DNA from: Margaritifera margaritifera
Taxonomy: Eukaryota; Mollusca; Bivalvia; Unionida; Margaritiferidae
NCBI GenBank assembly: GCA_029931535.1
Contig: JAQPZY010001332.1
Span: 806,001-870,000 of the forward strand
DNA length: 64,000 bases
Direction: 5' to 3'
The notes beneath the pieces are model-generated. The model was given only the letters and a program-made list of their open reading frames with translations, was not told the DNA's origin and made no database searches. Numbering within the stretch: the stretch's first letter is position 1; each line of letters opens with the position of its first letter. The translations under genes and the position numbers were made by a program. Below are positions 802 to 55,560 of the stretch, one piece after another.

Positions 802-927
802 CATGGTGACGTCAAAGACATTAATATCAAACTTGTCCATATTTGAGATAGATACTGGGCTGACAATAATATCACCATATTGTCTGGCCTCATGAAGTTC
901 ATTAGGCCAGTACATCTCACATTTTAC
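802..927 (-). CDS. Receptor-type protein tyrosine phosphatase, exon in mid D1 domain (VKCEMYWP exon)
   Basis: This 126-base exon has 42 codons, phase 0 at both ends, an acceptor TTTTTACAG and a donor ATG|GTAATG. It encodes VKCEMYWPNE followed by YGDIIVSPVS. That is the conserved phosphatase stretch after the TQGPLP motif, where most receptor PTPs read (V/E)KC-x-x-YWP and then YGDI. It continues directly from the exon ending at 1556. The catalytic HCSAGVGR loop and WPD loop should be in the next exons, outside the window. It forms part of the cytoplasmic domain that removes phosphate from phosphotyrosine. The identification is firm at family level. Confidence 0.93.
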
Positions 928-1735
<808 letters not shown>

Positions 1736-1875
1736 TCAAGTTAAAGTTTTGTACTTTGCTAGTTTCATGACTACATGATCCATAATCTTAATTATACTAG
1801 AGCTGTCTTACTGACATATATACACAATTAGGAATAGAAAGTTAATGTGTATCATAGAAAAATTTAAACAATAGA

Positions 1876-2745
1876 GTACTGTGAAAGGTACATCATACAC
1901 CCATCATGTGTTTAAAAGTCCTCTCTGTAGATAACTTTAATTTCTGTGTAGAAACCAGAATCCTTCTCTCAGTCAGTGACTTTGACCATTGACCTTTTGA
2001 CCCCCAAATCAACAGGTTTCTTCCTAACCTCAAATGCAAGCCATCCATAAAGTTTCGTTGAGGTATGTGATGTACAACTAATGTTATTATGTGCAGACTT
2101 TTATTATTTTTTCAGTCATGGTGACTTTGACCTTGACCTTTTAACTCCCAAATTTCTTGGGTTCTTCCTTAGCCAAAGTGCAAGCCATACACAAAGTTTG
2201 GTAACCATGGCTGATTGAGAACTCAAGTTATTGCATTGAAACCGTTTTATTTCTGTCAGTCAGTGTGACCCTGATATTAGACCTTTTGAGTCTTAAATCA
2301 ATAGGGTTCATCCTTATCCCAAGTGCAACTCATCTACAAAGTTTGGTAACTGTAGATATGGAGAACTTGAGTTATTGTACATAAACCATATTTCTTACTT
2401 CAGTAACAGTGACCTTGGCCTTCGACCTTTTGACTCCAAAATAAATTGATTTCTTCCTTCCTTACCCCAAGTGCAAGCTATCAACAAAGTTTGGTAACTG
2501 TTCATGGTAGAGGACTTTAATTATTGTACAGAAACCATTTTTCTTCTTTCAGTCAGTGACCCTGACCTTGTTGAGCCCCAAATTGATCAAATTCTTCCTC
2601 AATCCAAGTGCAAGCTATCCACAAAGTTTAGTAACTGTAGATGGTGCAAAACTTGAGTTATTGCACAGAATTAAATTGGTAAAAGACAGAGGAATGGAGA
2701 GGAAACATCGTAACATAATAAGCTTTGCCTTATGGCAGGGATAAA
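1876..2745 (+). repeat. Interspersed repeat of about five internal 145-base units with TGACC motifs
   Basis: Each unit reads roughly as TTTCTTCTTTCAGTCA, then GTGACCTTGACCTTTTGACC, then TTCTTCCTTACCCCAAGTGC, then ATCCACAAAGTTTGGTAACT. Units start near 1950, 2105, 2255, 2395 and 2545. The copy has a distinct 5' lead-in (GTACTGTGAAAGGTACATCA) and a tail (GTAACATAATAAGCTTTGCC). Both recur at 4195-4790 and the tail also at 43495-43990, so this is a defined dispersed element and not a local satellite. Repeats of this look are common in bivalve genomes. The ORF at 2556-2744 is only one internal unit. Confidence 0.8.
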
Positions 2746-3570
2746 ATATAAAACAGGAGTACTCCACCAAACAGCACTGGATAACCTGCCAACATAAGGT
2801 CAGTTATTGGAATGTATTTTTGGCAGTATTGTCTGTGTACATGTCAAAAGTCATGTACTGACACGGTTTAAATAGTACTCCTAGATAGATCTTCTGGATT
2901 TGTTCCTTACCTAAATTATCCAAAGAAATGAGCTGTTCAGGGTTCTTTTTAAGGCAAAGGAACATTTATGTACCAAGTTTCCTTGAAATCAGTTATACAG
3001 AAGTTCGGTTATTATCCAGAAATGAAATGCAAATGAATTTCAAGTTACCAAATCCCAAATTGATATAGTTCTCTCTTAGGTAAAAGGATTATAACATATG
3101 TATCAAATTTCATTTAATTTAGTTGAAGAGAACTTAGCTTTTGGTCCAGAATAATATGCCAAGGCTAAATCTATTTATAATAACAGTGACCTTGACACTT
3201 AAGGTACACCATCCCCAAGAATCTTTCTTAGAGGAGAACACATGTACAAATTTCATACCAATGCATTGTGTAAATGATGAAGTTATTGCCTAAACAATGA
3301 AATGTAGTTGTCAAATTTTTTTAAGTGACAGCAAGCCTGACCTTAAAGCTACTGACCTGCAAATCAATAGGATTCTTCTTCGGGATAAGTGGAACAAACG
3401 CATACAATTATGTTGAAAAATGTTATCTAGAACTTAAATTATCATCTGTAAATGAAATGCACAGGCAAAATCTATTTTTAACAAAGTGACCTTAAACTTG
3501 GAGGAAATAAATGTACTAAATTTTGCTGAATATTGTTTACAAGAATGTAAGTTATCAACTGGAAACCAAA

Positions 3571-3818
3571 ATGGATGCACTCTTTCCCACTAGTCATCCT
3601 AGACAAACAGCGGTAAACAAATGGATGCGCTCTTTCCCACTAGTCATCCTAGACAAACAACTGTAAACAAATGGATGCACTCTTTCCCACTAGTCATCCT
3701 AGACAAACAGCGGTAAACAAATGGATGCACTCTTTCCCACTAGTCATCCTAGACAAACAGCGGTAAAACAAATGGATGCACTCTTTCCCACTAGTCATCC
3801 TTGACAAACAGCGGTAAA
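3571..3818. repeat. 50-base minisatellite, 5 copies
   Basis: Five near-identical units start at 3571, 3621, 3671, 3721 and 3772. They read ATGGATGCACTCTTTCCCAC, then TAGTCATCCTAGACAAACAG, then CGGTAAACAA. The copies differ by single bases (GCGC for GCAC, ACTG for GCGG, one inserted A). Such low divergence implies recent amplification. Confidence 0.93.
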
Positions 3819-4194
3819 CTAATAATACCCTGCAGCTTTAACTGGCTGGTTATAAAAACTTGCTGTACATGGCAACCATAAAACTGACCATATTATATCT
3901 GCGGCCACGTTACAGGTATGTTCCAACAAGACTCAAAATAGAGCACAATACCAAAAAAATAACAGATATTTAATAACGTGAAACCTCATAATGATTGATT
4001 CTCATTAGACAGAGTTAAAAATAAGAAAATAAATTAAGTAGCAATAAAATGACAAAATTTACCCAATTTAATTGGACCCATGATCATACCTGCATTATAA
4101 GAGGGATAGCAGTATACTGAGGGGCTTCATAATGAGGGACCATTGTATTTTTATCAAAAGTCCAGGGGACTCACATTATGGAATTTTAGAAACA

Positions 4195-4790
4195 AGAGTA
4201 CTGCGAATGGCACATTATATACCCATCCCATGTTTACTAGTCCTCTATATTGATAACTAAAATTCTGGTGCAAAAAAAAACTTTTCTGCTTCGAGTCAGA
4301 GTGACTTTGACCTTTGACCTTTTGACCACAAAATCAATAGGCTTCTTCCTTTCTCCATGCATAAGCCACCCACAAAGATTGGTCCATGTATGTGAAGTAG
4401 AACTAATGTTATTGTGTGGTAATCATTTATATACTTTCAGTCACAGTGACATTGACCTTTGACCTCTAAATTTACAAGGTTCTTCCTTACCCCAAGTGCA
4501 AGTCATCCACAAAGCTTGGTAACCATATATGATGATGAACTGAAGTTACTGTGCAGAAACCATCTTTCTTCTTTCAGTCACAGTAACCCTGATCTTTGAC
4601 TCCAAAATGGATAGGTTTCTTTCTTACCCTAGGTGCAAGCAATCCACAAAGTTTGTTAACTGTAGATGGTGAAGAACTCGAGTTATTGTGCAGAAACGAA
4701 ATTGGTAACAGAGGGACGAATGGATATATGGATGGACAATGTCATAATATAATACACTTCGCTTTATGACATGCATATATAAAAATGAAA
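4195..4790 (+). repeat. Second copy of the half-site repeat, with two perfect DR1 motifs
   Basis: This copy has the same lead-in (GTACTGCGAATGGCACATTA), about three internal units and the same tail (ATAATATAATACACTTCGCT) as the copy at 1876. It contains TGACCTTTGACCT exactly at 4308-4320 and again at 4453-4465. These are direct repeats of the AGGTCA half-site spaced by one base on the minus strand. No protein is encoded. Confidence 0.8.
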
Positions 4791-5442
4791 ACAAGCTGAC
4801 CATCAGACAACTTTCTTTCATAAGTTTGCCTAAAAATTTTAAAAGTATGGGATGAGCTTATCACAAAGCATGGACCTGTGGGAGAATTATGGTGGTAACC
4901 AATCAAATGGTAGGATAATGTGACCCAAACGACCTCGCATTATTACAGCTAAACCAGATTATGACAAAGAGCTTGAGGCCAGTGAAATTCCTTAGTTACA
5001 AAGATAATTCACTAGTCATCTGCACATATATCAGAACTTTGCTATATCCACAAATATGCTAAATCTAAATTTTAAATAAATTTTATATTCCTGCAATGTA
5101 ACTGCAACAGACAATAATTCATAATTAAATGAAAATGAATTTAAATCTTGTGAACTGTAGGTGACTAGCAGTTTATGTACATGTCATTTTGCTTCAAGAT
5201 TAGATTCTGTTCAAATTTCAAGATATCAAATGAAACTATTGCTTTCAAAATACATGTATCTGAGTGCATGCACTGTCTTGAGATCTTGATCTTAACACGT
5301 TTCTATGCCAGCTTCATGCACACAGAATAAAATCAATGCTGAGCTAACAGAATACAAAAAGATGAAAAGATAACAGACAAACAAACACACAGACCAAAAA
5401 GTTGGACACACAAAGACCTACAGCCATCGTTGCAAAGCATGG

Positions 5443-5775
5443 ACAACAATCCACTACACTCCTTTATCACCTATAGCTGCCTGTGCCGAGACTTTGTTTT
5501 TCATCAGTATAGATAAACAAAATATACGTCATCAACAACACAATGTAACAATCTGTAAGACATCAATAAAAGTGCCCATTTTATTGATCAATAAGTGACT
5601 GTGTTTGGAAGAGAAACTTTGATTGGCTCATTCAAACAGTATGAAAGGTCATGTTGGGTCACAATGGTGAGAACATTTTGTTCAAACAGGTTTATGGATA
5701 TTCATGAGAAATGAGGAAATATCAGCACAGACAGCCATAGGTGATAAAGGAGTGTAGTGGATTGTCACCCGTGGC
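5443..5775. repeat. Fold-back (inverted) repeat
   Basis: The outer arm at about 5446-5495 (ATCCACTACACTCCTTTATC, then ACCTATAGCTGCCTGTGC) is repeated in inverted orientation at about 5725-5772 with a few mismatches. The similarity weakens inward. This is a hairpin-forming MITE-like element; I see no target-site duplication with certainty. Confidence 0.7.
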
Positions 5776-8350
5776 TTGTGAAGAAAACCTACGGCAAGAA
5801 GCACAAAGTACACACATGCATATATGACTATTTTACACTTAGATAGCAATGTTATGAGACATGTGCGAAATTGTGAATGTCTTGAAAAATATATTTCCTT
5901 TTTTTCAAAATAAAATTTGATAAAATTAAAACAAGAGTCATCTACAGACAACATATCCCCCGGTCTCCTGCTTATGTAAAGACTTCTAGGACAGGTAAGC
6001 TAAAAATATTGAAACTTAAAAACATAGAAAAGCAAAAGGCACATCTGACCCTGTATTCTTGAAACATTCTGAGATGGAAACAATGGTCCTTTTTTTCCCA
6101 CATAGATCACACAACTGTGCAATATTTCAGTACTCTGTTAACCAATCAAGTGGACACTAATTAGTTAAGGCCATGTAGATGGCATAATTAGAACAGTGGC
6201 AAACCATCAGGGCTCAGGAAAAGCACTTGTCCACTCGTCCTGACCAGGTAAAAATTGGCTGGGCGGAGTAAAACTTTACTACGTACTCATCTCTGGGCCG
6301 AGTAGATGCAGAATCATACCTTGAGAATAAATCTGAGTGCATTTTCTACCCTTAACAAGGACTGAAGTTCAACATCGCTTAACATTTGGCATGCATCAAT
6401 TATAAATAACTTATGCCTAATCTGCCTACTTGTTGCAAAGAAAATGGCTTTTTTTTTTTTGCTTTTTTTAAACACTAGTACCTGATGTAAGCTTGATACT
6501 AACATGAGTAAATATTATAAACATATAATGTTGCAGTTTCACACTTTGCCCTCGATTTCTTCATGGTGTTTTCATTCACAGTGACACTTTTCAGTAACTC
6601 AGGCATCATTGTAATGTGGAGAAAGATTCCCTTTCAATGAGCTAACACATCTTTATGAGTCACACCACTGAGAAGTTAAAAGACTGAAAATATAGAAATT
6701 TGTCTGATTTTTCATCTGGCCAGGCATTATTACAGTTGCTGCAGGTCACCGGTGTTTTCAAGACTGAAGCTTTCTTGATACATTGTCATACTAAAAGGAT
6801 GATGCTAGCAAATATTTCTATATGCATATAATTACTTTTCAGAAGTAATTTATTTGCCAACTTACATTTGAAATGATTGTTTTAAGTATCTCTGCTGATT
6901 CCCACCAACTTTCACACAATGCATGCTGTTGCAATGTATTTCTAAAGCAGATAATGTCAAGACAATAACCGATTGGTCAAAATTTAGTTGAGATAATGAC
7001 CTAGAAATGTTCCAAATCTTTTGGCCAATCAGCAATCTACCTTTTCATGGAGCCCATGTATAGCTCTCTAGAATGGAGGTTTGACCAAAATGGATCATTT
7101 AGCATGAAAGTTGGTGGAAATTGAGATGGTTGGAATTCTTCTTTCAAATGCAAGTTACTGACATCTGTCTTGTGAAATGTACTTTCAGACTTATATAAAT
7201 ATATGCTGGTGTCTTTACTTTGGCATGACAATGTACTAATAAAGCTACACAGTCTTGAAAGTACTGGTGATCTGGGGCAAGCATAACAATGTCTGACGAG
7301 ACAAAACTCATAAAAAATTTTGACATTCTGTCTTGTAACTTCTCCCATATCTAACTTATAAAAATGTGTGATAGCTCATTGAAAAGGAAAATTATGACAC
7401 CTAGATTACTGAAAGGTTTCACTGTAAAGATGAGTACCACTAAGAAATCAAGGGTTATATATACAACTGCAATTTCCGGAGTTACAAACCTTGCCTCTTA
7501 TTCTATGCTTATCTAATGAGCCACGTATTAGAACCTAATATTTTCATGATTTTAGTATCAAGCTTGCACCAGGTACCTGTGACTCTTTAATAAAAGTATA
7601 AGCAGTGTAGTGGAGAAGTGTACTGTGTTGAGTATAATGAGGACAGGGACAAGTAACTTGTGCAACTCACTCATCCTAGGGATGAGTGCTTGTGAAAATG
7701 TTCCTAAGCCCTGCACCATATAAAGGCTCTCAACATGATTTTGACATGTGATATCTACTTCAAAAGTATCCATAATGATGGTACTATCTAATGATAGGGT
7801 ATTGAGTTGGGGAGTGAAATATCAGATAGGTATCTCAAATCATTGTTATGTAATACATCCTTTTGACATCCTATCAATATGAATCAGATGATGATTAATT
7901 TTCCATGAGGTTTAAACTTAATCAAATATTGAGTTTTGGAATATTAATATTTCCCCACCCCCACCTCCCATATCAAGTTTCTTTACCATATGTTATTATC
8001 TCTGTGCAGTTTTAACAAGAACCAGGGATACAGTGATACTCTCCATCTGTCAATTATTTTTTCTTGTTCTAAACAACAGAAAAAACCATGAACGTGGTTA
8101 TCCTTATGGTAATTGGCAATCATGTACAAGGGGGTATTATTTGTTGACTTCCTGCTTAGAAGTCCCTACAAGAGAGTCAAAGATTGAATGTACTAATAAA
8201 AATTTAATAACTGTAACATTTTAAATTTGTGAACCACAAAACTCAGGGCAGTTGTATCAGGAACATACATAATATATATGACACATTTTGCTATTATCAT
8301 TGTACACCCCTAGAGGCCAGATTCTACTGGGTGAAAGTCAGGGCTTTGAT

Positions 8351-12518: not shown

Positions 12519-12694
12519 GCAGACTGCCAGGAACATGGTGCTGTTAGCAAATTAGGTTTGTACTAGTAAACAGACAACACACTACTAGCAGGGTAGGTAA
12601 GCAGGCTTGATAGTTAAAAGTGCAACCAGGTGGGATAAGTCAGCACTCTTTGTGGGTTATTACATCATTAGTAGGGTTAAGTAAGCAGACTTAC

Positions 12695-12774
12695 AGGGAT
12701 AAAATTAGCATTTATGTAATCTGATGTTGGGTCATCTTCATCTAGTAGCTGCAACTTCACACGACTGTGGTCAA
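12695..12774 (-). CDS. Receptor-type protein tyrosine phosphatase, DHSRVKL-DYINANFIP exon
   Basis: This 80-base exon has an acceptor GTTAAAG|TT and a donor CCT|GTAAGT. It enters with two bases, completing a Phe codon with the previous exon's final T, and leaves in phase 0. It encodes FDHSRVKLQL, then DEDDPTSDYINANFIP. DHSRV-K-L and (D/S)YINA-(N/S)-(F/Y)I-P are motifs of active classical PTP domains, and their presence suggests a catalytically competent D1 and not a decayed D2 domain. The join to 1690-1556 gives [17 protein letters not shown]. Confidence 0.95.
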
Positions 12775-13266
12775 CTTTAACAAAACAGGACCAGGACAAA
12801 ATGCAAATGAATGAAATAAACATAAACAAAACAAAACGAACACAATAATAATAATGCACAGGAACCCTGCCATAATGAGCTTCATTACAACACAAATTCA
12901 GATATAACATGGTTGCATCATGGCTCCAGATTTTTTTGCCTCTGATGTCACTTATTCTCTGATATTACTCAAAACATCAGCCAAGCTGACAAAACATATA
13001 ATAAAAAAACCCCATTCAGTTAAGTTTTGGAAACCTATAGCGTACAGATCATAATAAATGTTCTTACACAGCAATGATTAATTTTAATTGAGCAAGGGCT
13101 GATCTTAATCCAATATGTTCTAAAAATTGGCATGTAGTAAAATAGTTGCAATATGTTGAACTGGCACTTTGTTTATCCTCACCTGACACTCATATACATA
13201 TTCATCCAAGTTTTTATTATTCTAGCAGCAGCCAACTACCTCATTATGGCAGGATTCCTCTGTAGT

Positions 13267-19885: not shown

Positions 19886-20090
19886 GTATTCTCAATTTAA
19901 AGAATAAAAGGCAAAATTACGAATAATTATTCACGACTGCTGAAGATTAAAGTAACTTGTATAGGGTAAGTATTGTTTTGTATCGATTTTTCACCTCCTG
20001 TATCATTATCGGTATCAATATGGAAACATTATCGAAACATCGATTAATTGTTTCAACCCTATTGTCAACATCATTTGGATTACACCTTAC

Positions 20091-20172
20091 CTCATATTCT
20101 TTTGCAAATCTCAGTCTGGAGTCTTTGTTCAGCTCTTTTAAATATTCCTCCAGGTTTGAGAGCTTGAAAGGT
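20091..20172 (-). CDS. Receptor-type protein tyrosine phosphatase, first exon of the D1 domain
   Basis: This 82-base exon has an acceptor GTTATAG|A, a donor GAG|GTAAGG, enters completing an Arg codon and leaves in phase 0. It encodes RPFKLSNLEEYLKELNKDSR followed by LRFAKEYE. This is the N-terminal helical segment of receptor PTP D1 domains (RPI-x-x-x-x-(L/F)-x-x-(Y/H)-x-x-x-(L/M) ... F-x-x-E-(F/Y)-E). It sits between two large inverted repeats in its flanking introns (19070-19885 and 20607-24336). Confidence 0.92.
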
Positions 20173-20606
20173 CTATAACAAAGGACAATAATCAAGTGAT
20201 AAACAAGGGTTCCAGGGAACCCGAGTCTCCCTTGCAAACTGTACTATGAGGTATCCCACTACACATGCCTTAAAAAAACTTAAAAATAAAATTGAGTCTA
20301 GAATCCTAACATTGACTGATGCTGCCACTATTGCTAAAGCTGGAATAGTGATGCCTTTGTCTCACAATTTTAACAGGGCAGGCAAAAAAAGGCTGTGAAT
20401 CCCACAACATAACAAGTAAATCTAAATTTAATTTAATTTAACAGAAATTAAGTCATATAGTTCACATATTTCCCATAAACAAATGGCAACAATTTTGTCT
20501 TGCAAATATGTTGATCTTTTGAAGAAAAAAAAAATGCAGTCATGCAAAACAATTATGATTTACAGTACACAGCAACAATAGCAAACAGTACAAAATGTTC
20601 ATGTTT

Positions 20607-40599: not shown

Positions 40600-43060
40600 T
40601 AAATGACATCTCCCTCTTCTAACAACTCAGTATGCTTGAGGTACCACTTCAAAACCTCTACTGGGGTCCTGCAGATGTCACTGAAGTGAAGGATCCAACA
40701 AGGAAAGAGGTTTCACAACCAAGGACTGATTCCCCATGAGTTGGAGTCTGTTCTTGGCAATGAAAGCAGGAGCCATCATGAGTGAACCATCGTGGCAGAA
40801 CTGCAGATAGTTTCAATTGAATGACAAGGCATGTATCTCACTGATTCTGCCTGCTGTTGCTAGAATGACTCAGAAAGCAGGTTTTGTTGCAGCAGTGAGT
40901 CAAGGAGGTTCTAGACATAGGTTCAAAATGTGCTTTATTCAGCCATGTCAGAGCCCATGGTAGATTCCAGTTCGGACACAGGGCCAGAGCCTTTGGTTAA
41001 GACAAATCCCAGTTCAAAAGCAGGTCAGAGAGGTCTTTGCCTTGACCTATATCCTTCCTTCCAAGATAACACATCAGAGATCATTGAACAGTAGCCTTTG
41101 ATAGTTACAGGGGCTAACTTCTTCTTTCTGAAGAGCCAAAGAAGGATGTTAGCTATTTGCGGTACTGAGGTTTTTAAAGGAGCGATGCATTTCTGCTCGC
41201 GCCACCAAGAGAAACTCTCCACTTCCCTGTGTATGCTTTTAAAGTGGTAGTACTTCTTGCCCAAGCGATTCTGTCCTCTACTTGTTCTGAGAAATGTTTA
41301 CCCCTGAGGGATGAACCAGGCAGGTTCAACAATTCTGGGTTTGGATGGAACACCTGCATTCGTGGTTGCTTGAGCAAGTGAGGAAAGACCAGGATTTTAC
41401 TGTTAATCTCCACTGTCAGGTTTAATAGCTTGTTTATCCATGATTTTGTCCACTTAAGGAGAGTAATCAGTACCAGAAGGCAATCTGATTCCCTTGCTTT
41501 CTGCAAGACTTTGTGGATAAGAGAGACTGGAGGGAAGGCATATGTCGCTAGACCATTTCAGTTCAATGGACAGTAGTTGTGCGTTCCACCTTGTTGCAAA
41601 TAGACCAACAAGTAGTTGAACCCAATGGGCAAAGATTTATCTCAATACAGAGGGGTGAATGGACATTTCAATCTGAATTACCTGATTCTGTTGGGACAGT
41701 GAGTCTGCTAGAATACAGAGTCTGACCAGAATGTTGTGGACCTGGTTGTGAATTTGTTGATGATGACACCAGCTAAGAAAACCCCAAACCAGGTGGCAGC
41801 AGTGTCAGGATTTGATTCCCTTTGCTTTTTGATGTAATTTACCACAGTGGTGCTGTTGGATAGGATAAGAATATCCATTCCAGACAACATCTGCTGCCAT
41901 GATTGAAAGACATTGATTATGGCCTTCATTTCCATGAGACTGATGTGTAATAAATGCTCCTGAAGGGGCTACACCCCAGCAACTTCCCAAAACGATGGCA
42001 GGAGGTGGGCATACAGAGCCAACTGTGGTGGCATCCATGTAGATCATAATTCCCAGAGGCTGAACCTGCAAAGGAATACCCAACATGAGTAAGGTGACAT
42101 TGACCCATTTGCTGAGATGGAACCTCGTGTACCCCGAAACTGGGACTGCTTGGTTCAGTGGGCACAGCTTCACTTGCCACCAGGATATGAGAATCATCTG
42201 CACTGGTCTCATAAAGCGGTGGACCAAGATGATGAAGTCCACTGATGCACTGAGGAGACCCAATAGGTGAAGAAATTCTTGGGCTGAGATGCAATTCTTT
42301 GAGAAAATTGTAGATATCATTTAGATGATTATCAGGGCATGTTTGTGAGGAAGACAGACCCTGTTTAAATGTGTTCTGAAATCCATGCCCAAGTGGGTAA
42401 AATGGTGGGACAAGCTGATACTGGGATGTTGTTTGACACTTGGGTCTTGAAGTTGCCTCTCTAATGATTGTAATAAATCAGCAACTTGGTTGGTGTTTCT
42501 TGGCCAATTGATTAATACATGTGGAAACTTTGTAAGTTGTCAATGATGCAGTAGGAGGAGGCAGTCAAAACTCTGGCTGCAGAAGCTGGAAAACGTTTTG
42601 GATTGATGCATGGAAGGCTATACCAAGATGTTACTGGCCCCTGAGGTACTGCCAAGAACACATTCCAGTTCTGGTGACAAGGGCGGTGCTGGTGCTGTAT
42701 ATGAAGACCATGATCATCTGCCATGCTTTATTTCCTTCTGGACCAGTGAGTTTTCCACCTTCAACATCTCTACTATTAGGAAGCTGTAAATTGAGGTGGC
42801 ATCGAAGGCTATACCGATCGAGTCCACATCTTGTGTGTTTCCTCACCCTCTCACTTGCCTGATTAATTTGTTTGGCCAAGAAAGTCGCCCTTACATTTTC
42901 TGACCGTTGTGTGCATATGTTACAACTATGGCTCAAATTGCACCTGATACAAGTCAGACAGGTAGCATTGTTATTTTCCATCAGCATGAAACACTTGTAC
43001 CCCATGCACTTAGTCCTGCCCAATATATTGACACCTGCAATTGTAGAGAGCAAAACAAAG
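40600..43060 (-). pseudogene. Degenerate DIRS-type retroelement (gag-like, RT/RNase H, tyrosine recombinase)
   Basis: Blocks in transcript order on the minus strand, all frameshifted: a Cys-rich gag-like piece (about 43053-42630) with NNNATCLTCIRCNLSHSCNI and EVRATFLAK-like VRATFLAKQINQASERVRK; an RT connection fragment (about 42430-42100) with HLGMDFRTH, LHLLGLLSASVDFI and HRFMRPVQ; an RNase H region (about 42070-41800) with IMIYMDATTVGS, SCWGVAPSG and the histidine/Asn words before KQ; and a tyrosine recombinase (about 41300-40600) with LKAYTGKWRV, VTIKGYCSMISDVL and ATARR. LLSASVDFIxLxRxHMRP and the recombinase N-domain are characteristic of DIRS elements, which integrate without target duplication. 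Most of the RT palm is missing or unreadable. I saw no termini. Confidence 0.75.
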
Positions 43061-44031: not shown

Positions 44032-46420
44032 TACCATCTATACTCACTTATAAGTCAATATTTTTTACTAAAAATTTTATTAATGCAGAGTAGGGGTCGT
44101 CTTATAAGTGCGACATACAATTGTTTTTAAAAATCAGACCCTAATCCCTCAGTGTATAAAGGTAAACATGCTTTGTTTTTCCAAGTTCACAATCTTTTGA
44201 TTGAGATACTAATTTGATAATTATGACCTTAACCCCTTAGCTTGTAAATGCAGCACTGCTTTGTTTTCCCCGGTGGACAATCCTTTGATCATGCCACGAA
44301 TCTGATACATGTTCAATGTCATGTTGATCATACTGTGCAATTGACACCTGCTCAGTTGCGGCGATCCTTTAATGAGATTTCAAAGACTGTATGATCAAAG
44401 TCTCTCACAGAGCCCAAGCTCAGTCTCTACATAAGTAATGGTCCAAGTTTATGAATCATCAGTGTTTTGTCAGTCACTGTGTACTTTATCACTTAGATAT
44501 CATACAGCGTGAATTGCTAAACTTAGGTACTTTCACCAATATGGGGAAAAGACAACATAATGCGTCCAATGGAGTATTTAAGTTAAAAGTTATAGACTTT
44601 GCAGAGAAAAATAACAACTGCGCTGCAGAACGTTAATTTGGTGTGTCGGAGAAACATGTGTGTCACTGGCGCAAGAAAAAGTCAATTATAGGTGATAGTG
44701 CCAGGCATCTGAAGAAAATTCAAGTAATGGAAAGCCCTTATGCAAACTGGGAGTTTAGTTTCAATGAGTGGGTTCTAGAGCAGCATCAAAATGGGCATGC
44801 AGTGACTAGAAATGGCATTAGATTGAAGGCCCTTTCTACTGCCAAGGCTAACGGTGATGAATGTTTTAAAGCTTCAGCTGGATGGTGTATGCGATTTATG
44901 CGATGTCGCGGACTTTCACTTCTACAACACACTCACACAGCCCAGAAATTGCCTGTCGATGCTGAGGAGAAAGTGGATATTTTTTAAAAATTTGTTATCT
45001 ATGAGAGAAAACAGAATAATCTTGATTTGGTACACATAGGAAATATGGTCGAAACTCCTATGTTTTTTGATATCCTGGGAAATTCAACTGTACACCCAGC
45101 AGGAGACAAAACAGTGACTATAGGGACTTTGGAAAATGAGAAACAACATTTCACAGTAGTATTAAGTTGTTTAGCAAATGGTACAAAACTGAAGCCTCTA
45201 CTTGTGTTTAAACGCAAGACGATGCCAATAGAAAAGATTCCAAGTGGAGTGGTTGTAACTGTTAACCCTAAGGGATGGGTAGATGAGGCAATTTGTTTGG
45301 TCTGGATTGAAAAAGTATGGAACACTAGACCAGGCGCATTGTTGAAACATAAGGCATTGCTTGTGTGGGACATGTTTTGGATGTATTTGATGCAGTCTGT
45401 GAAGCAGAAGTTGGGGTGACATCGAACATACCAAGCTGTTATCCCAGGTGGCATCATGTCAGTATTGCAACCATTGGATGTTCATCTAAACAAGCCATTT
45501 AAGGCAAATATGCATAAACAGTGGCACAAGTGGATTGTAGATGGGCCCAAAGAAAAGACACATGCAGGAAATCTGAAGCGTCCAGGGATTGAGTTAGTAA
45601 CTCAGTGGGTGTGTAATGCATGGGAGGAAATTCCAAATGAGAATGTGGTCAAATAATTTAAGAAATGTGGTATTTCCAATGCAATGGATGGGACGGAGGA
45701 TGACAAACTCTTCAATGATTTCATTTGTGACAAGACCAACACCGAAGCACCCACAGATGACAGTAAAGACAAAGAATCAGAGTGGACGAGGAATCAGAGT
45801 CGGACGATGTTTACGATGACCGGATGACAGTGGAGGAATTTAGAACTTTATTTGGTAACTCCAACGATGAGGATGAATTCTTGGGCTTTGAACCAAATGA
45901 CATCAGACAGTGACATTTATAGGATACTGTGAAACACAAAAGTGTAGACTTTACATTAATTGTTTATTTATAAGACTTTTGGAATTAATATATCACGAGA
46001 TATTGTGAATCGCATCATTTTTGACTACCAATTTGATACCTTTATGTGACCTATAATCCAATGCATGGATTTATCATATAAATGGATTAAAAATAAAGCA
46101 TTATGGATTTAATTACACAAAGATGTACAAAATATAAGTTGTCAATTTATTTGTACATATTCAACTCAATAATAGAACTGTATTTATTCTATGTTGGTTT
46201 TGTTTTTATTTGCCCTATCTATCTACATGTCTATCTATCTATCCAGTTTGGCTTGTTTATTTGTACTAGGTGCAGCTCCTACTCACTGATGACATGTCAC
46301 CCCTTGCAGATGGATTTGATTTGCAAAAAACACCTCAACTTATAGGAGGGTGATAGAGGAATTAGCTTTTTGTGGCCACGAAAAAGAAGGGGGTCTAGTT
46401 ATAATCGAGTATATACGGTA
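44032..46420 (+). mobile_element. pogo/Tc2-like DNA transposon, nearly full length, inactive
   Basis: The left end TACCATCTATACTCACTTAT and the inverted right end ATAATCGAGTATATACGGTA form terminal inverted repeats of roughly 25-30 bases. Between them lies one transposase reading frame broken by stops (44541-45913). Ends of the TACCGTATATACTCG...TATAAGTC kind are shared with the four MITEs in this window. The length, about 2.4 kb, is normal for an autonomous member of the family. Confidence 0.82.
44541..45913 (+). pseudogene. pogo/Tc2-type transposase pseudogene (CENP-B-like HTH plus DDE domain)
   Basis: One frame runs from ATG 44541. Order of parts: first HTH (VFKLKVIDFAEKNNNCAAER, then FGVSEKHVCHWRKKK); CENP-B-type second HTH (ANWEFSFNEWVLEQHQNGHA, then GWCMRFMRCRGLSL); DDE catalytic core with VETPMFFDILG (first Asp), LLVWDMFW (second Asp) and VLQPLDVHLNKPFK (third Asp); and an acidic tail (ESESDDVYDD, then DEDEFLGFEPND) ending at TGA 45911. 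In-frame stops lie at 44634, 44985, 45417 and 45654, with a frameshift near 45780. All three catalytic aspartates are still encoded, so decay is fairly recent. Confidence 0.88.
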
Positions 46421-46943
46421 CATTAGGATTGAATATTTGCTAATTTTCAATAACTGACATGGACTATTTTGAAACACTATGTAAAGAAAAAAAAAAAGAA
46501 ATAGATGAAGAGTGAATTTGTTCAATTTGATCTATTTTGTTTATGCCAAAAGTTGGGTTTAGTATGCTGATGCTATTTTTGCACAAGTGTTACATGCAAA
46601 TATTGTAAGCATTAATAATATGAGAGTTGGCAGAGCAAAGTGCATCACGTATTCTTCAGCTATCTTAGTACCACTCTTCTGACACCAAGTATTGTTTTTC
46701 TGCTAAACCTAAACATAATCTAAAACCATAACAATAATATGAACACTGTGGATGTTTACAGCCTGTGGCCTGTAAATTACAAAATTATCCTGACCTATCA
46801 AATTGCCTTCACATGCATTACACATCCTGCACAAAGTCATGTCAAAATCATCAACAGCGCTAGAATAAGTACCACTGCATTAATTTGATTTTGCTCAAGC
46901 AACAAAAACAACAATCAAAGTTATAAATGACCAACGCACATAC

Positions 46944-47057
46944 CGTTATTGTGAACTTCACTTGCCAAGGAACTCAAATTAAACTTGTAAGGAAATGTAT
47001 CTGGTTTTCCTTGACCAATGTCAGGTAGTTTTTCAATTTCCACATCTGGAGAATTTC
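46944..47057 (-). CDS. Receptor-type protein tyrosine phosphatase, membrane-proximal ectodomain exon
   Basis: This 114-base exon has an acceptor TTGTTTCAG|GA, a donor AACG|GTATGT and phase 1 at both ends. It encodes NSPDVEIEKLPDIGQGKPDT followed by FPYKFNLSSLASEVHNN. It continues the non-canonical fibronectin-like membrane-proximal region of exon 58351-58208; an N-glycosylation sequon (NLS) is present. Support comes from splice sites and phase match on both sides. No strong motif stands out on its own. Confidence 0.8.
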
Positions 47058-47617
47058 CTGAAACAAATGAATTAGCACCATGAAAGGAAAAATATACTTT
47101 CTCAATATGCCACCAGTACTTTTCTTAAACAAGAGGCTTGAGTAGGCCTGATTTCACTCACCTTGCTTACCTTACTGCACCCCTGCAAGAAGAAATTCAT
47201 GACTTCATGCATACTTGTGAACTGTTCATGAATGTGCATGAACTGTTCTTTAAATGCTCATGATTAGTTCATCAATCTAGTTCATGAACATATTCATTAA
47301 AGTTCCACAACTTAGTTCATGAACATACTAATGAACTTTTTTGAACCATTATAATAACTTACAAGTTCTTGAAATGTCATGAACAACTTGGTTCATGAAC
47401 AATTCAAGAACTTTGATGCACAACTAAAATATTTATTGAAAATGTTGATGATATTTATGATACAATTGTATTTATAAAAAGTTCATGAAAATTCATTATA
47501 CAAACTTTATCACTATATTTGTGAAATAAATAAATTAAAGGTAAAAAAATACAAAAAATATGATAATGAATACTGTAGAAATGTTTACAAAGATTTTTAT
47601 TCAGATACTTGTGTTCT

Positions 47618-47903
47618 TAATCTGAGTAGTCTTGGACTAATTTGGGTAAATATCTTGGCTGTTTGGATTTCTTCATCTGATCAGCTCCTTTGTTGCAATG
47701 ACCATAACATCCTGGAGATGCACATGCATATATGTCAAAATCATTTGGAAACAGCTCATTACAAGTTCACAATAATGGATTTCATTTGCAATATCACTAC
47801 CTAACAGGTCCCACATCTTCTCATAACTTAGCTCTCTGAGTGGTGAGCAGTCTGGAAATACTTTTTTCATTGTTGAAACTACATCACTGCCTGCATGAAG
47901 TAG
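47618..47903 (-). pseudogene. Last exon of the unknown minus-strand gene in the composite element
   Basis: The acceptor AAATTTTCAG|CTACTT is followed by an open frame LLHAGSDVVSTMKKVFPDCS, then LRELSYEKMWDLLGSDIANE. After one frameshift near 47757 it continues NELFPNDFDIYACASPGCYG, then HCNKGADQMKKSKQ, to a stop at 47618-47620. The CASPGCYGHC cluster could bind a metal ion. No family is recognised. It is presumably joined to exon 48341-47990, although the exact donor of that exon is unclear. Confidence 0.5.
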
Positions 47904-47981
47904 CTGAAAATTTGTTTCTCAAAAAACATTAAAAAAATGTCATTTCCTTTTCTTTGTGGGCCGAATAAGATGCAGATTGAT

Positions 47982-48341
47982 AGTCCTCTTAATCAGATGA
48001 AAAAACTGACACACCAGAATCCGAGAAATCACTGTCTACACTGTTTTCATCATCATCATCATCAATGTCACTGCTATCATCATATTCATCACTGTCATCA
48101 TTGTCATCCCCACCACTGTCTTCTTCATCACCAATACCACCATTGTCAACATCACTGTAACTTTCCTTATCATCAAGCAGATCAGGACTAAAGTTTTCAC
48201 ACTGTGCATCAACACTGCAGTTTTCCCTTGAAGCACCAACTAATATAATTTCATCATTCTTAATCTCCACATTTTCTGGCTGACCCTTGGCGCTTCCATG
48301 ATATTCATTCCATATGCTTTCAGCTGCCATAGGAAAATAAC
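47982..48341 (-). pseudogene. Middle exon of the unknown minus-strand gene, acidic
   Basis: The acceptor CATATTTCAG|GT gives SYFPMAAESIWNEYHGSAKG when joined to the exon ending at 49841, in the correct phase. It continues to an Asp/Glu-rich low-complexity region (EEDSGGDDNDDSDEYDDSSD, then IDDDDDEN). The phase agreement between two independent exons supports a real former gene. The open frame reaches a stop at about 47989 unless a donor is used just before. No known domain. Confidence 0.5.
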
Positions 48342-49840
48342 CTGAAATATGTAAAACAATTTACCAGTACTCAACTTGTTTCATATTTCAGAAGATATGT
48401 CAGCTTCTTACATAAATTTATTTCTTGATTTATTGCGGTTTTCTTTTGGTTCTTATACAGACCCTGAAACATTTATGTACCCCTCTTAAATACAAACAGA
48501 ATGAAGAACGAACAGTAAATGAATGTAAAACAAAACAGCAATAAAAAAAGCAACTTTGCATGTGACACAGCCTAGTCATCATATATACATATATGTCCAC
48601 CAAGTTTCACAAAAACATGTTAAACTAGTGATCCTGGGAGTGATCATGGAAGTGTTGGAATAGAGAAGTGAAATCTATGTCACCAGCTTTTTGTGAAAAA
48701 GCAGGGAGTATTAATGCTCTCATGAAAGTCATAAGGTAGTTTTTCTGAAGATGGAATCATATCTTTTTAAGTTCCTTTTCAGCTGATTGTTTCACTGGAC
48801 TTTCATTGCTGCTTGATGTTTTCTACTGTTGTTTATTTCTAGTTTCGTCCTCCGAGTACTTCATGGTATCTCAATGAATGTGTCATCTAAATACCTCTTT
48901 GTCTTTTCAATGGACCTAGAATAAGTAAACATCATTAGCCCTTTCACATATTATTTAACATGGTCATGTGATTTGTCATTCAGATTCAACTCTGGCAGGG
49001 TGACAGGATAATACAAAGAGTCAATATGTACAAGAGTTGTTATTGCTTATAAATTTATCAAAAACCAATCAAAGTTTCTAATATTCAAATGAAAATGGAT
49101 TGAAATCGTACTAACACAAATTTATTTGACAATATAATCCTGGTCCATTATAGAACTTAAAATTACACAAATAACAAGAATGTAACAATTTATTATCGGA
49201 TGCAGTACAACATTCATGTATTTTGCATACAAATTTTGTTGCGTTTTAAAAAAAAACATGCTGTAAATTTTCTATGCAAATTAAAAAATGCCTCTATTAG
49301 ATGTGTTTTCTTCCCCCCAAAATTTTGCTTATATATCAACATGAATTGCACCAATGCACTCCACATCCATTGCCAATGAAAGGAACTTTTTGTTTTTATA
49401 TTGATGACAAGATATAAGTGCAGTGTGGTTTACAAACAATGAAAATACTATTAAGAGCTGCTGTGGACCACTCACCAAATCCAACTTATAATCTTACAGT
49501 GCACTGGGAACCTCATTTGCATAACAATAGGGAACTTGTGATCTTTGGTGGGCTATGTAGGAAATTTCAGATACATAGCAATGTTGGAATTACTTGTAGA
49601 GGGCTCAACCAAATTTAAAATTATCTGAATGTCCTACTTGGCCTTCATTCATTACTACTAGTCCACAATTGTTGACAAGATGTAAGGAAAGTAGGACAGC
49701 TTCAGGATTTATTTTTTTTAAATCTAAAAAAATGGAAATCTATACTTCGGGCATGTAAAATTTTTCTATCCCTAACTTCCTATCAGTAGCATACTGACGA
49801 TACCTGCATGAATTTAATTAACATTCGTTAAAATACTCAC

Positions 49841-49979
49841 TCATATTGTGTGCAGAATATAAACGGTATATCTTGGAATGCAGAATTCTGCAATAGTTTT
49901 GGTATTCAAAGCATTTTCGTCCATTACTGTCGTGAACTACGGCATACTCTGTTGACTTTCCACCATCATTTGTTGCCAT
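49841..49979 (-). pseudogene. First coding exon of the unknown minus-strand gene
   Basis: It starts at ATG 49979 inside CAAGATGGCAAC and ends at donor ATGA|GTGAGT (phase 1). It encodes MATNDGGKSTEYAVVHDSNG, then RKCFEYQNYCRILHSKIYRL, then YSAHNM. I do not recognise the family. Its start codon lies about 75 bases from the first readable codons of the opposite-strand BEN-like gene, implying a shared bidirectional promoter. Confidence 0.5.
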
Positions 49980-50052
49980 CTTGCCATACAAACCGAAATA
50001 TGTAAACAACGATTATTCTGATTGGATGTTAGCGGAAGCAGACAGGACATGA
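49980..50052. promoter_or_regulatory. Putative bidirectional promoter of the composite element
   Basis: This is the gap between the two divergent first exons. It contains two CCAAT-type words (CTGATTGGATG at 50019 and TGATTGGTGA at 50050) and an ETS-type core AGCGGAAGC near 50031. No TATA box is seen. The minus-strand start codon is embedded in AAGATGGC, a YY1/TISU-like word typical of TATA-less promoters with short leaders. Confidence 0.4.
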
Positions 50053-50317
50053 TTGGTGAATATATGCGCGTGGATTCAGCAGCAGCTGAGCCTTTTTTCC
50101 CACAAACAAAACAGCGTACAAGTGGGTGAACAACGGATTCAAAACCTCAAACTAAACATATGGACTTTTGTGGAACTGACAGAGGAGAATCTTTTCAGTA
50201 TCATTTCTTTTGAGTCAACAGAAGTGCAGAGAAGAGATTATGAAGAATATAAAGAAAATGACTTGGTGAGAGCAAATTTCGGGGGGAAAGTATACCAGCC
50301 AGGATTACAAAAGTCCA
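50053..50317 (+). pseudogene. First exon of a decayed BEN-domain gene (Tudor/SH3-like N-terminal part)
   Basis: The open frame runs to donor TCCA|GTGAGT and encodes KLNIWTFVELTEENLFSIIS, then EVQRRDYEEYKEND, then LVRANFGGKVYQPGL. Invertebrate BEN proteins often start with such a small beta-rich module (x-W-x-x-VE(W/F) ... SV(I/V)P ... G-x-x-(V/C)-x-A-x-(W/F)-G-x-K-x-Y-x-A). There is no in-frame ATG; an ATG at 50065 (MRVDSAAAEPFFPQTKQR) lies in another frame and would need a frameshift near 50127. So it is a pseudogene or its start is elsewhere. Confidence 0.55.
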
Positions 50318-51186
50318 GTGAGTATAAATTGTCATTAAGTGATTCTTTCAATAAAATTTATATGGATATTTTATTGGTTTTCATACATAATATATATTAA
50401 TTGTAATGAAACTCACAGGGAGTGATTTTTTTTCAAACCCAGTTTGTGTTAAGAGCTGCTCTTGGAATTTTTGAAAATCACTAAACATTATTCAGCTCCC
50501 ATTCTGAATCATCCCACCTTTCAATCTCGATACAAGACACTGTACTGTATCTACTACAAATCTATATGTGTGGCATCATTTCTGATTTCAAAACATCACT
50601 ATTTCTATAATCCGATGTACTGTTTGGTAAATTAAAAACTGAACTGTCTAGTTAATGTACCAAATCGTACACAACAATACAGATGCAAATAGTGACCTGA
50701 TGAAACTGGAAGCAATACCTAACATATGCGGAGTCAAAATAAAAGGTGCGATGAAACCACAGCGACAAAATTCTCCGAATAAGTTCTGTATAGATTTTTT
50801 TGTATCATTTTGTTTTCTGAATTGTATGCCAAACATTACATAATAATGTAGTCTGGATACAAGTGCTTTAATCCTATAAATTTGTGTGATTCATATTTGG
50901 ATAGTATTTACGATGTAAGCAATTAGACTAATATTTGTTTGAAAAATATATGCAATATAGATGTTATTTTCTATTGCAATACAACAAAAATAATTAAGTA
51001 AAAAATATCGAATTAATACTTGTAATAATTATTATTATTACTAAAATGTGCTTTCAAAATCTGATTAAATCTCTTAATTTTATTTCTATTTTACTTGCAT
51101 TCATCATTGATTTTTATTTACTTGTTTTACTGAGTCATCTGAATATAATAATTTTTACTTAGATTTCATTATGAGGCACATGTTAA

Positions 51187-51187
51187 T

Positions 51188-51237
<50 letters not shown>
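51187..51237. repeat. (AAT)n microsatellite
   Basis: About 16 AAT triplets within the intron of the BEN-like gene. Simple sequence only. Confidence 0.95.
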
Positions 51238-51940
51238 TCTACATTACTTTCACTCTGATGTAGTCAAAGCACTTATGTTTTAAATACAACTGAAATATGA
51301 TATTAAAAATATTATAGGGCAATGCCACTTTATTCAGAATGCATTATTGTCGAATGTTTGGTATATAATTAAAAAAGGATTAAAAATAAAATCTATACTC
51401 AACTTACAGAACATTTGTATAATTCAGAGAATTTTGTCATTGCTTTCATCTCTGTTTTATTTTAATTGTAACTGTTGTGGAGATAGGTACCTTGCATGTT
51501 GTAAACAGTATAGTATATACATGTACTGACTTGTTTTTCTTTTTTTTTAAACCTCTGCAAGAATCCAAGTCCATACCTTGACTGAAACCTACTGATCTGG
51601 GGACACAATGTCAAGGTAACCATGAACCAAGGAAAAAAATGATTTCTGGACAATGATTTTACTTCTAAACAATTATCTTAACCAAGCTTCATGGATAGTT
51701 TCAGCTTTGGGCAAAAGAGAAAGCTAATGAATAATTTGAGCAGAGAGAGGGGGCTCAAAAGGTCACAAAATGTGTTGTGTATGTGTCTAGCATTCTGATG
51801 ATGAAGTGCCTTTCAAGCTTAATAATTCTGGTCCAGTCATTGTGAACTTTTTGTGAAAAGTCCCATTTAAGTAAATATCTAGAATTCTTTGTGAGGTTGT
51901 CTGTACTAATAAAACTTGCTTTATCTTTCTTTCACATCAG

Positions 51941-52319
51941 ACAGTAGAAAAGTAAAAGAAGTAGAGGATTAAGTTGGCAGGTTAAGGAAGAAAACCAGAA
52001 AACTGGAAGACCGGATGGCCAAGATGGAGGATACATTAAGTACTGACTGCTGCAGCAATGTGAAAGATTCAAATGGTGGAAATCAATCAGGTGATCAGAT
52101 GGAACAGCTCAAGTCAGAGATGGAGAAATTCAGTGGTGACAATGAGCATGAAGTGACTAAATTATTGGCCTGAAGATCTTTATAAAAGATGAGTTATCCA
52201 ACAGGTCAATCTCTGGAAAGCAATTGGTCAAGTCAGGAGAAACCCCAAGACAGCCCCTTGACCAGTCAAAACTGAATATGGTTGAACAATTGGTGAAGCC
52301 AAAATACCCCATTATCTAA
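51941..52319 (+). pseudogene. Second exon of the decayed BEN-domain gene: coiled coil and C-terminal half of a BEN domain
   Basis: The acceptor TTTCTTTCACATCAG|AC matches the phase of the exon ending at 50317. It encodes SRKVKEVED, a stop (TAA at about 51970), VGRLRKKTRKLEDRMAKMED (coiled coil), a Ser/Gln-rich linker, and after a frameshift near 52172 IFIKDELSNRSISGKQLVKS, then PLDQSKLNMVEQLVKPKYP and a stop. The pattern LFT-x-(E/D)-EL-x-x-(S/R)-S-(L/I/V)-x-GK ... PLD-x-x-K-(L/V)-x-x-(I/V)-x-x-x-V-x-x-(K/R)-(F/Y)P is that of BEN domains, DNA- or chromatin-binding modules known from animal and viral proteins. The BEN N-terminal half is not readable. Confidence 0.65.
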
Positions 52320-53844
52320 AAAAAATTTTATAGAAAAATTACAGAACATACAAAAAGTGTTACGAAGATAGTAAGAAAATGAACATCATCTGTCAATTTA
52401 TATGTGCTTTGTTGCATGTTAGAAATTTATTTAAAATTAAAAAAGACTGTTTTTAACATAATATATCTTGCATTTTTTTTTTACTGTTTTGCAATCCCAC
52501 CACCATTGTTATTTCATGATTAAGGAGGAAATGTTAATATCGGTATTTGAGAGTTCCTCAGATAATCAAATTTTGTATAGGAACTGTTCATGAACAGTCA
52601 TGAATCATTCATGTTTAGAAACTTTGTTCATCAATAGTTCATGAACAATATGCTGGTGCCATTTCATGTTCATGCACCGTTCATGAACAATGACGACCAC
52701 ATTTTTTAACTTTTATGGACTATGCATGAACTTGGTTCTTGAATAATTCATAAACTGTTCAATAACAGTTTGTGAAGTCTAGGTTCATAAATTCAATTTT
52801 CATGAATTGACCTATTTCAGTTCATGCATATTCATGAATAGTTCATGAACCTTTTCATGGACTTTCATGAATGATTCATGAACCCAGTCCATGAATAATT
52901 CTTGAACAGTTCATGCCAGTTCATGAATTGTTCGTGATCATTTCACATTTGGCATGATTTTATAGTTTTTCCAAGCTGTTACAACTGGGTAATGTAACAA
53001 AAGAAAAGACTCAAACAAGCTTTCAAGATTTAAAATACAAATATTTAATTTCCTAAAATATTAAAATATATCAACAAACAATTAAAGTAAAAGAATTAAA
53101 AAATAACTTACAGTATAGAACATCCTTAAAAGTCCTAAATTGTTATAAAGTTCACTGATCCGGAAGTTAATCCAAATATTCTGAATGAGATTCCTAATGA
53201 AACCTTTGCTGTAATGATGTGTTAATAAGAATCAGTATATCCAAGTTTTATAAATTCCAAATAATCCCTGTGAATGGAATATCACAAGTTCTAGAAATTT
53301 TTCCGATAATTCCATGGAGCTGTATGATTATTAAAGTTGAAGAAACAGTACTAATCCAGAATGTACTGTATGATAATATCACAAAAGTAGAATATCCCAC
53401 ACACAAAAAGAACCAAATTCGTTTATGACCTCTCAATCCAGTGTAGCTATGAAGAATGCCAGAATGCTGCTAGAAGTCCTATAATATAGTCTCTTACTAC
53501 GCAGAATCGAAAAAAACCCCCATTTAATCCTTCTAGAACCAACTGTCTCCGAACCAATCAGAAACTAGGTTATGTGTGACATCTCTAAAGTACCAGTGTA
53601 CCAATGTTTTAAATAATCAATAAAGTATTTACCTTAGAAATGAATCATAGAATCTAGGTCAAAAGTTCAAACCTCACATGCTGAAAACACATGACATGAC
53701 TAAAGCTTCAGTGAAATATCAATCGAAATTACCGTATATGTACTCACAGCAAGACGACAACTGTTAGACCAAGAACAGAGATCATAAACTAATAAACTAT
53801 ACCATTATTAAAAGAAAAATGATATATAATTCCATAACTAAGCA

Positions 53845-54359: not shown

Positions 54360-55560
54360 GAACCTAGTAGATATTATAAGAAGTATTTTGGCCAATACCC
54401 AATGTCGATATCCTGGAGGAGTAGCCATAACAAGATTTTCAAGCTGGCTGCCAGGACAGTCATACTGGATCTCCGATCAGCATCATTTTCTTTCAGGACC
54501 AACTAGACACCATAAGAAGTCTTCACATGAAAACCCCATGTCGATATGACTTTCCATTTAGGACGAGTTGCGACAAGAACATTTTCAAGCTGGCTGCCAG
54601 GACAGTCATATTTGAGCTCAGATCAGCATCATTTTCAATCAGGACCAACTAGATGTCATAATTATTCTGGTGAAAATCCCAAATCAATATGACTTTCCAT
54701 TTAAGAAGAGTAGCAATAACAAGATTTCAAGATGGCTGCCATGGTGGCCATAATGGATGTCAGATTGGCACCATTTTCATTTAGTATCAACTAGACATCA
54801 TAAGAAGTCTTCTGGTGAAACCCACTATTGATATGACTTTCCATCTAGGAGTGGTGTTAACAGTTTCAAGATGGCCACTGTGGCAGCCATATTGGATATC
54901 AGATCAGTTCAATTTTATTTAGGACCAACTAGACATCACAAGAAGTCTTCTGTTGAAAACCATGCGTTGATATGACTTTCTGTTCAGCAAGAAAGGTGAT
55001 AAAAAAATTTCAAGATGGCTGCTGTGGTGGCCATATTGGATGTCAGACTGGAACCATTTTCATTTAGGACCAACTAGACATCATATGAAGTCTTCTGGTG
55101 GAAATGCCATGTTGATATGACTTTCCATTTAGGAGGAGTAGAAATAATGAGATTTTCAAGATGGCTGCTGTGGTGGCCATGCTGGATGTCGGATTTTGGC
55201 ACCATTTTCATTTAGAATCAACTTGATATAATAAGACATCTTTTAGTGAAAACCCCATATTACTACAACCATCTATTCAGGAGCAGTAGCGACAACAATA
55301 TTTTAAAGATGGCTACTTTGGTGGCCATACTGGATATCTGAACAGGACCATTTCATTTAGGACCAACTACACCTTGGAAAGAATGTGTGTATAAAGTTTT
55401 ATGGCAATCCTCCAAGTAGTTTAGGAGAAGTAGCAATAACAAACTTGTCATAACAGATGGACAGACATTGGAAGATGGATGTATGATGACACATGTCAGA
55501 CACTGGATGACAGATGAACAACTGAAAACAGGCCATCCCATAAGCTCTTCTAGTCTATGA
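54360..55560. repeat. About 135-base tandem-unit repeat with CAAGATGGCTGCC motifs
   Basis: About seven diverged units share TTCATTTAGGACCAACTAGA, CATCATAAGAAGTCTTCTGG, TGATATGACTTTCCATTTAG, GAGTAGCAATAACAAGATTT, then CAAGATGGCTGCCATGGTGG and CCATATTGGATGTCAGATTG. The last unit is followed by TAAAGTTTTATGGCAATCCT and an ACAGATGGACAGACA tail like that of other dispersed repeats here. No coding potential. Confidence 0.88.

Follow-up and report, generated by a model that had tools for sequence, protein, structure and literature searches.

A stretch of 64,000 nucleotides from the bivalve Margaritifera margaritifera (contig JAQPZY010001332.1, positions 806,001 to 870,000; hereafter the window) was analysed for a composite element at positions 47180-52945, in which two divergent gene remnants lie between two arrays of the palindrome GTTCATGAAC. 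The left subterminal array (47200..47490) contains three exact copies of GTTCATGAAC and the right subterminal array (52586..52928) four, each with variants in addition, and neither is assigned to a strand. The plus-strand gene consists of exon 1 (50158..50317) and exon 2 (51941..52371), the latter with a coiled coil followed by a BEN domain, several stops in this copy, and is covered by the genome match C476:857937-858368. On the minus strand, a transposase-like gene is read from exon 1 (49841..49979), which is C2H2-like in the family consensus as judged by eye, through the acidic exon 2 (47989..48341) to exon 3 (47617..47888), a piece of the YCxxC...FP...C...C type whose frame is broken here and which is covered by two genome matches, C476:853620-853772 and 853748-853888. 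The short region between the genes (49980..50157, no strand) is presumed from the gene layout to hold a shared promoter. Both splice joints proposed in an earlier sequence-only reading were recovered: joining 49841 to 48341 gave one open frame, and joining 50317 to 51941 gave a frame that was open except for decay-like stops.

The palindrome arrays were far beyond chance expectation. Exact copies of GTTCATGAAC numbered three in 47224-47490 and four in 52586-52928, whereas averages over 1000 shuffles per array were 0.002 and 0.003, and with one mismatch allowed 15 matches were found in the window, versus a mean of 3.3 and a maximum of 7 in 100 dinucleotide shuffles. The count of seven exact palindromes in two arrays given in the sequence-only reading was correct, but not the statement that they are confined to the arrays, as an eighth exact copy is present at 26717. 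Among the 8-bp palindromes of the two arrays, TTCATGAA was found 14 times and every other one at most once. The TTCATGAA arrays are minisatellite-like and are expanded in some copies of the element (C201, C194). The density of the motif was also determined over 33 merged stretches from the genome, with the bases split by their alignment to parts of the window. For the right array, 9,982 aligned bases contained 86 exact copies of GTTCATGAAC, and for the left array 3,354 contained 27, or 8.6 and 8.1 per kb, versus a single copy in 73,353 interior bases (0.01 per kb); repeated subterminal motifs are present near both ends. A further 12 copies were found in 119,210 unaligned or flanking bases, and some of these are probably unaligned array.

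A search with window positions 47000-53100 was performed against the assembly itself (2.45 Gb, 1,696 contigs). As 40 of the 2,207 candidates were scored, all counts from this search are lower bounds. At least 130 matches were obtained, two of them the window's own place, and the family occupies at least 32 places on at least 25 contigs, the window included, when pieces more than 15 kb apart are counted as separate places. The identity of the listed matches was 67-95%. Elsewhere in the genome, 127 of the 128 listed matches fell within query positions 179-5946, corresponding to window positions 47178-52945, and the only one reaching beyond these borders started at query position 154. The start falls at 179-187 in nine of them and the end at 5943-5946 in eleven. 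Because the full 5.8-kb segment is found elsewhere with both borders unchanged, the single-element interpretation holds, and the segment is one element, a decayed copy of a repeated mobile family, as the sequence-only reading had supposed. That reading was to be abandoned if the arrays occurred independently elsewhere as ordinary satellites and no other locus had both genes between such arrays; the copy on contig C1465 is one example among other loci with both genes between both ends and arrays, and places with an array alone were few among the copies read.

Two main groups of copies were distinguished. The first resembles the window (e.g. C1465, C405, C330 and C618), and in the second (C673, C294, C561, C565, C602 and C1306), where read, the window sequence breaks off at 47929 and has joints at 48528/49131 and 51278/51829. 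Five copies at C673 1050000-1240000 have flanking DNA in common, approximately 84-97% alike where it aligns, and are segmental duplicates of a region that was duplicated several times. At C294:5229500-5231800, next to the copy on that contig, lies a long tandem array with a unit of about 25 bp that can be read through in several frames. Longer copies were inspected as possible autonomous elements and rejected. The 5.6-kb insert of C330 (stretch L061) contains what we take to be a hAT-like frame and looks nested. The first 10 kb of the 11.5-kb gap in C405 (stretch L062) are presumably DIRS-like, one basis for this label being a match of the gap DNA to the flank of the C1465 copy, and these also look nested. 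C463 and C698 contain additional DNA with frames presumed to be piggyBac-like and hAT-like, which was likewise interpreted as nested.

The aligned copies end in a short, imperfect terminal inverted repeat (TIR) of about nine bases, CCCCTNNGA on one side and TCAAAGGGG or TCACAGGGG on the other. A CCC core is present in the repeat, on the left as CCCCTTTGA or CCCCTGCRA and on the right within TCAAAGGGG/TCACAGGGG. The left end is CCCCTTTGAGAACAA in C1465 and CCCCTGCRAGAACAA in the other form, and several copies carry decayed versions. The common form of the right end is ...TTCATGATCATTTCAAAGGGG, with flanks that mostly differ, and a second form reads ...TTTTCACAGGGG; the flanks of C561, C565 and C1306 are similar to one another. 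In the window, the left terminus (47180..47194, plus strand) is a decayed form of CCCCTTTGAGAACAA / CCCCTGCRAGAACAA, placed by the border of the nine listed matches and by the aligned ends, and the right terminus (52929..52950, plus strand), placed by the border of the eleven, reads TTCATGATCATTTCAAAGGGG in other copies and is decayed after 52945. The alignment of copy boundaries advised in the sequence-only reading defined the termini, but a target-site duplication was not demonstrated. Both ends were readable in four copies, and only C1228 had equal flanks, AG on the two sides; for C1228 and C201 the two ends were taken from separate stretches and assumed to belong to one copy.

BEN domains are found in host chromatin and boundary factors and also in some viruses. 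The plus-strand gene was described as BEN-like in the sequence-only reading, and the profile search agreed: the window's own frame scored 23.0 bits against PF10523, just under the cut-off of 23.2, and the uninterrupted C1228 copy scored 24.0 bits over positions 4-74 of 76, a whole-domain profile match. A hand-made composite scored 35.4 bits. When this composite was used to search solved structures, 22 matches were obtained up to an E-value of 10, the best at 0.064, and none of them was named BEN. The second exon of the gene encodes a coiled coil followed by a BEN domain. In the genome, the composite had 55 matches, including C539:3540769-3541086 at 40% identity, and further BEN exons on C786, C1424, C1180 and C486 were 38-89% like the two query BEN pieces. 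Mismatches between the C618 and C539 BEN exons at codon positions 1, 2 and 3 numbered 53, 34 and 73 over 108 aligned codons, and between C1228 and C539 they numbered 54, 39 and 70 over 106 codons. This pattern points to past protein-level constraint on the BEN protein.

The minus-strand gene was examined through a majority consensus built from 15, 14 and 9 rows for exons 1, 2 and 3, the window included. The consensus of exon 3 shows the pattern YCETCNELFPNDFDIYACASPGCYGHHYKG...KKSRQPR, followed by a stop. A search of the consensus against Pfam and NCBIfam gave nothing at the curated cut-off. In a protein database search, 135 candidates shared words with the minus gene and none reached an E-value of 1 or lower, and no candidate was found for the exon of a relative. 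In the genome, exon 3 gave 23 matches, with distant ones on C539 (40%), C91 (35%) and C798 (36%), and when the C539 version was used as query, the C91 exon matched at 49% and that of C798 at 77-81%. The C91 relative (C91:914692-914946, minus strand; 35% identity to the last minus exon, E-value 9e-10) is followed on the same strand, about 0.6 kb downstream, by a match to Transposase_21 (PF02992) at C91:913686-914057. A genome search with this family gave 24 matches at an E-value of 10 or lower, 18 of them above the cut-off. With only 24 such matches in 2.45 Gb, it is unlikely that the adjacency on C91 is due to chance (about 1 in 100,000 by our own estimate). Because the C91 relative of the last exon leads to a Transposase_21 match, we regard the product previously described as acidic as most likely the N-terminal portion of a tnp2 transposase of the CACTA type, the catalytic part of which is missing from the family. 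The suggestion that the second protein might be the enzyme or its partner is upheld to the extent that it is probably enzyme-related.

The arrangement of the two genes is also found outside the family. On C539 (stretch L077), a BEN remnant with internal stops is 40% identical to the BEN protein of the window family. Its stop is followed directly by 356 bp with six exact copies of GTTCATGAAC and then by TTTTCACAGGAG, an end close to the second terminus form. A tnp2-like exon lies about 6 kb from the BEN remnant on the other strand, the same arrangement as in the window. After this exon and one stop, the next frame reads KKDRQSRKSFILADTKKQLKHLLEAPGI, which we take to be typical of animal tnp2-type transposases, and is followed by a presumably piggyBac-like frame that looks nested. 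From these sequences, C539 is judged to represent a sister family, at about 40% protein identity, in which the layout and the array palindrome are retained and the terminus is similar. On C798, a BEN exon on the minus strand and a tnp2-like exon on the plus strand are again paired divergently, with about 11 kb between them.

The data directly show the repeated family, its borders, the remnants of both genes, a connection between the last exon and a weak Transposase_21 match in a relative, and an array next to a diverged BEN gene. On this evidence, window positions 47180-52945 are probably a dead, non-autonomous derivative of an animal CACTA/TRC transposon with the BEN protein in a TNPA-like role, and the label of an unassigned system was too strong. 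In the ancestor, two divergent genes, one for a tnp2-type transposase oriented to the left and one for a coiled-coil/BEN protein oriented to the right, would have been enclosed by ends with a short CCCC inverted repeat and subterminal GTTCATGAAC arrays. A master copy that had lost the catalytic part of the transposase but retained its N-terminal exons, together with the BEN gene and the two ends, may then have multiplied, presumably through mobilisation in trans. The BEN protein, paired through its coiled coil, would bind the CATG-centred palindromes at both ends and gather them, and the transposase would act on the CCCC termini, much as TNPA works with TNPD in plant En/Spm. Array binding by the BEN protein, mobilisation in trans, the bridging role and the exact superfamily are what we infer.

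Plant En/Spm needs two proteins, the enzyme TNPD and a second one, TNPA, which binds repeated motifs in the subterminal regions (PMC2613891). The BEN domain of NACC1 selects the palindrome ACATGT with the core CATG (PMC7764960), and its structure has been solved on CATG DNA (PMC11472053). Since the NACC1 BEN domain prefers CATG palindromes, binding of the arrays by the transposon BEN protein is suggested, and by this analogy a TNPA-like action at both ends is somewhat favoured.

Several observations count against this interpretation. The C91 Transposase_21 match is weak, with 26.6 bits versus the Pfam cut-off of 28.6, an E-value of 0.0037 and two stops. No copy of the window family, in which the catalytic domain was not found, adjoins any of the 24 Transposase_21 matches, and none of the genome BEN matches is near C91. 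The sister terminus was seen at one locus only, and a second BEN match on C539 (3521327-3521594, minus strand), 13 kb to the other side of the tnp2-like exon, does not fit a layout with one gene pair. A structure model of the C1228 BEN exon was poor, with a predicted local distance difference test score (pLDDT) of 54.9. No target-site duplication could be demonstrated, as the flanks of C1465, C618 and C201 were unequal among the four copies with both ends readable, and the window's own right end is too decayed for such a reading. The C1465 copy lies inside a DIRS-like element, and comparison with another DIRS copy (L062) suggested an overlap of about 3 bp, CCA versus TGA, in decayed form. No clear sign of coding constraint was found within the family, where mean divergence from the window, taken over different copies for each piece, was 7, 10, 15, 12 and 12% for five exon pieces and 12-13% for introns, and indel rates of exon pieces and introns were alike. 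This fits neutral decay after the spread of the family. Consensuses of two subfamilies, built from the window and 14 rows (group A) and from 8 rows (group B), were too close to each other for a test of constraint; a further 14 rows, comprising other subfamilies, near-duplicate C673 copies and reverse-strand array matches, were not included. Finally, a search with the right array alone matched 30 contigs, 11 of which are absent from the list of whole-element matches, the sister family on C539 being one, and C486, C972 and C1329 showed an array with no interior match in the stretch read. Such places could be solo ends, other subfamilies or spread satellite.

These array-only places, together with the minisatellite-like character and the expansion of the TTCATGAA arrays in C201 and C194, would be expected if two unrelated satellites flanked two host genes by chance and there were no element. 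This explanation was rejected as extremely improbable, given that the entire 5.8-kb segment is found repeatedly within the same borders and that copies such as C1465 hold both genes between both arrays. The TIRs of piggyBac-like elements can also begin with CCC, and presumably piggyBac-like frames adjoin or lie inside two relatives (C463 and stretch L076), so an element of another superfamily, for example piggyBac-like, could have acquired a tnp2-like fragment and a BEN gene. We consider this improbable: the piggyBac-like frames are at differing positions and look nested, and the tnp2-like exon is found repeatedly, within the family as well as on C539, C798 and C91. Nor was TTAA, the target duplication of piggyBac and Kolobok (PMC9587614), found adjoining the copy ends listed.

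A more serious alternative accepts the CACTA derivative and regards the BEN gene as a chromatin gene acquired from the host, with a shielding or regulatory effect on the element, the transposase itself binding the arrays. Human BEN proteins are described as mostly chromatin-related in function (PMC11472053), and the case for array binding by the BEN protein is one of analogy. This alternative is nevertheless regarded as rather unlikely, as the sister family, at about 40% protein identity, still has the BEN gene next to the array, C798 has it as the divergent partner, and the array palindrome is CATG-centred like the sites of NACC1. An end-binding role of the BEN protein in a CACTA-type transposon remains the preferred interpretation.

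Other features were noted around the element. An open frame on the minus strand at 46921-47124, about 55 bp left of the element border and with no Pfam match, may hold a host exon, and the element may therefore lie in an intron. A frame at 12677-12964 (minus strand) matches a protein-tyrosine phosphatase exon (PF00102, 20.0 bits, slightly short of the 20.9 cut-off), and 19947-20243 (minus strand), which has no Pfam match, presumably resembles another exon of the same host gene. Transposase remains at 44637-45419 (plus strand) contain a Tc5 DNA-binding domain (E-value 1.3e-10), followed in the next listed frame by DDE_1 (E-value 3.2e-11), and are taken to be of the pogo/Tigger type. Frames at 41805-42477 (minus strand) resemble DIRS retroelement proteins by eye, and one tested frame had no Pfam match. 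A 146-bp tandem repeat is present at 54415-55369, and by eye its unit is also found left of the C370 copy near 2731100.

The animal CACTA relatives known as TRC (SmTRC1 of Schistosoma and relatives in Tribolium and Aedes) have a Transposase_21-type gene, to which the minus-strand gene of the window family probably corresponds, and share with the family TIRs starting with CCC and deletion derivatives that keep the ends (PMC1636069). The descriptions in the excerpts of that paper mention neither a BEN gene nor a palindrome array; the TIR of SmTRC1 is 54 bp long, whereas that of the window family is imperfect and about 9 bp, and the 2-bp target duplication of TRC compares with equal 2-bp flanks in one of four copies here. 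Plant En/Spm combines a tnp2 enzyme with a second protein that has repeated subterminal sites at both ends (PMC2613891), a two-part logic that the window family probably shares, but in the window family the second gene is separate, divergent and of BEN type, with a product presumed to bind the arrays, and the TIR begins with CCCC and not CACTA. NACC1 shares the BEN domain, and its sites (ACATGT) are CATG-centred palindromes like those in the arrays, but it is a host regulator with a BTB domain, whereas the window protein is transposon-borne with a coiled coil before BEN, and the bases around CATG differ (PMC11472053, PMC7764960). In the open-licence literature, as far as the available text goes, no BEN gene was placed in a transposon and nothing closer was found, repeat databases being outside the comparison. 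The terms BEN domain and DNA transposon occur together in PMC5704228 and PMC11075544; in the excerpt of the former, a reference title alone supplies the term, and the latter mentions zebrafish genes of BEN type and Kolobok transposons in different passages. A search of open-licence papers for EnSpm with subterminal repeats in molluscs found nothing relevant. The remark in the sequence-only reading that no named transposon has this combination stands for the BEN gene with arrays, described in no paper found, but not for the kind of element, which is most likely a known one. Most likely, the ends and the enzyme are CACTA-like, and the second gene and the arrays are new relative to the literature found.

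The transposon BEN gene beside arrays of CATG palindromes would represent a natural pair of protein and site that stayed linked even as the protein diverged to about 40% identity. If true, the two-protein principle of En/Spm would also apply in animals, where the binding domain is an unrelated one. It is a speculative and doubtful further step that in an animal CACTA lineage a BEN protein of its own, recognising the CATG-centred palindromes at both ends, evolved as end-binding factor independently of TNPA, and that some CATG-specific host BEN proteins descended from such transposon genes. The transposon BEN gene could, in any case, be a possible source of lineage-specific BEN genes.

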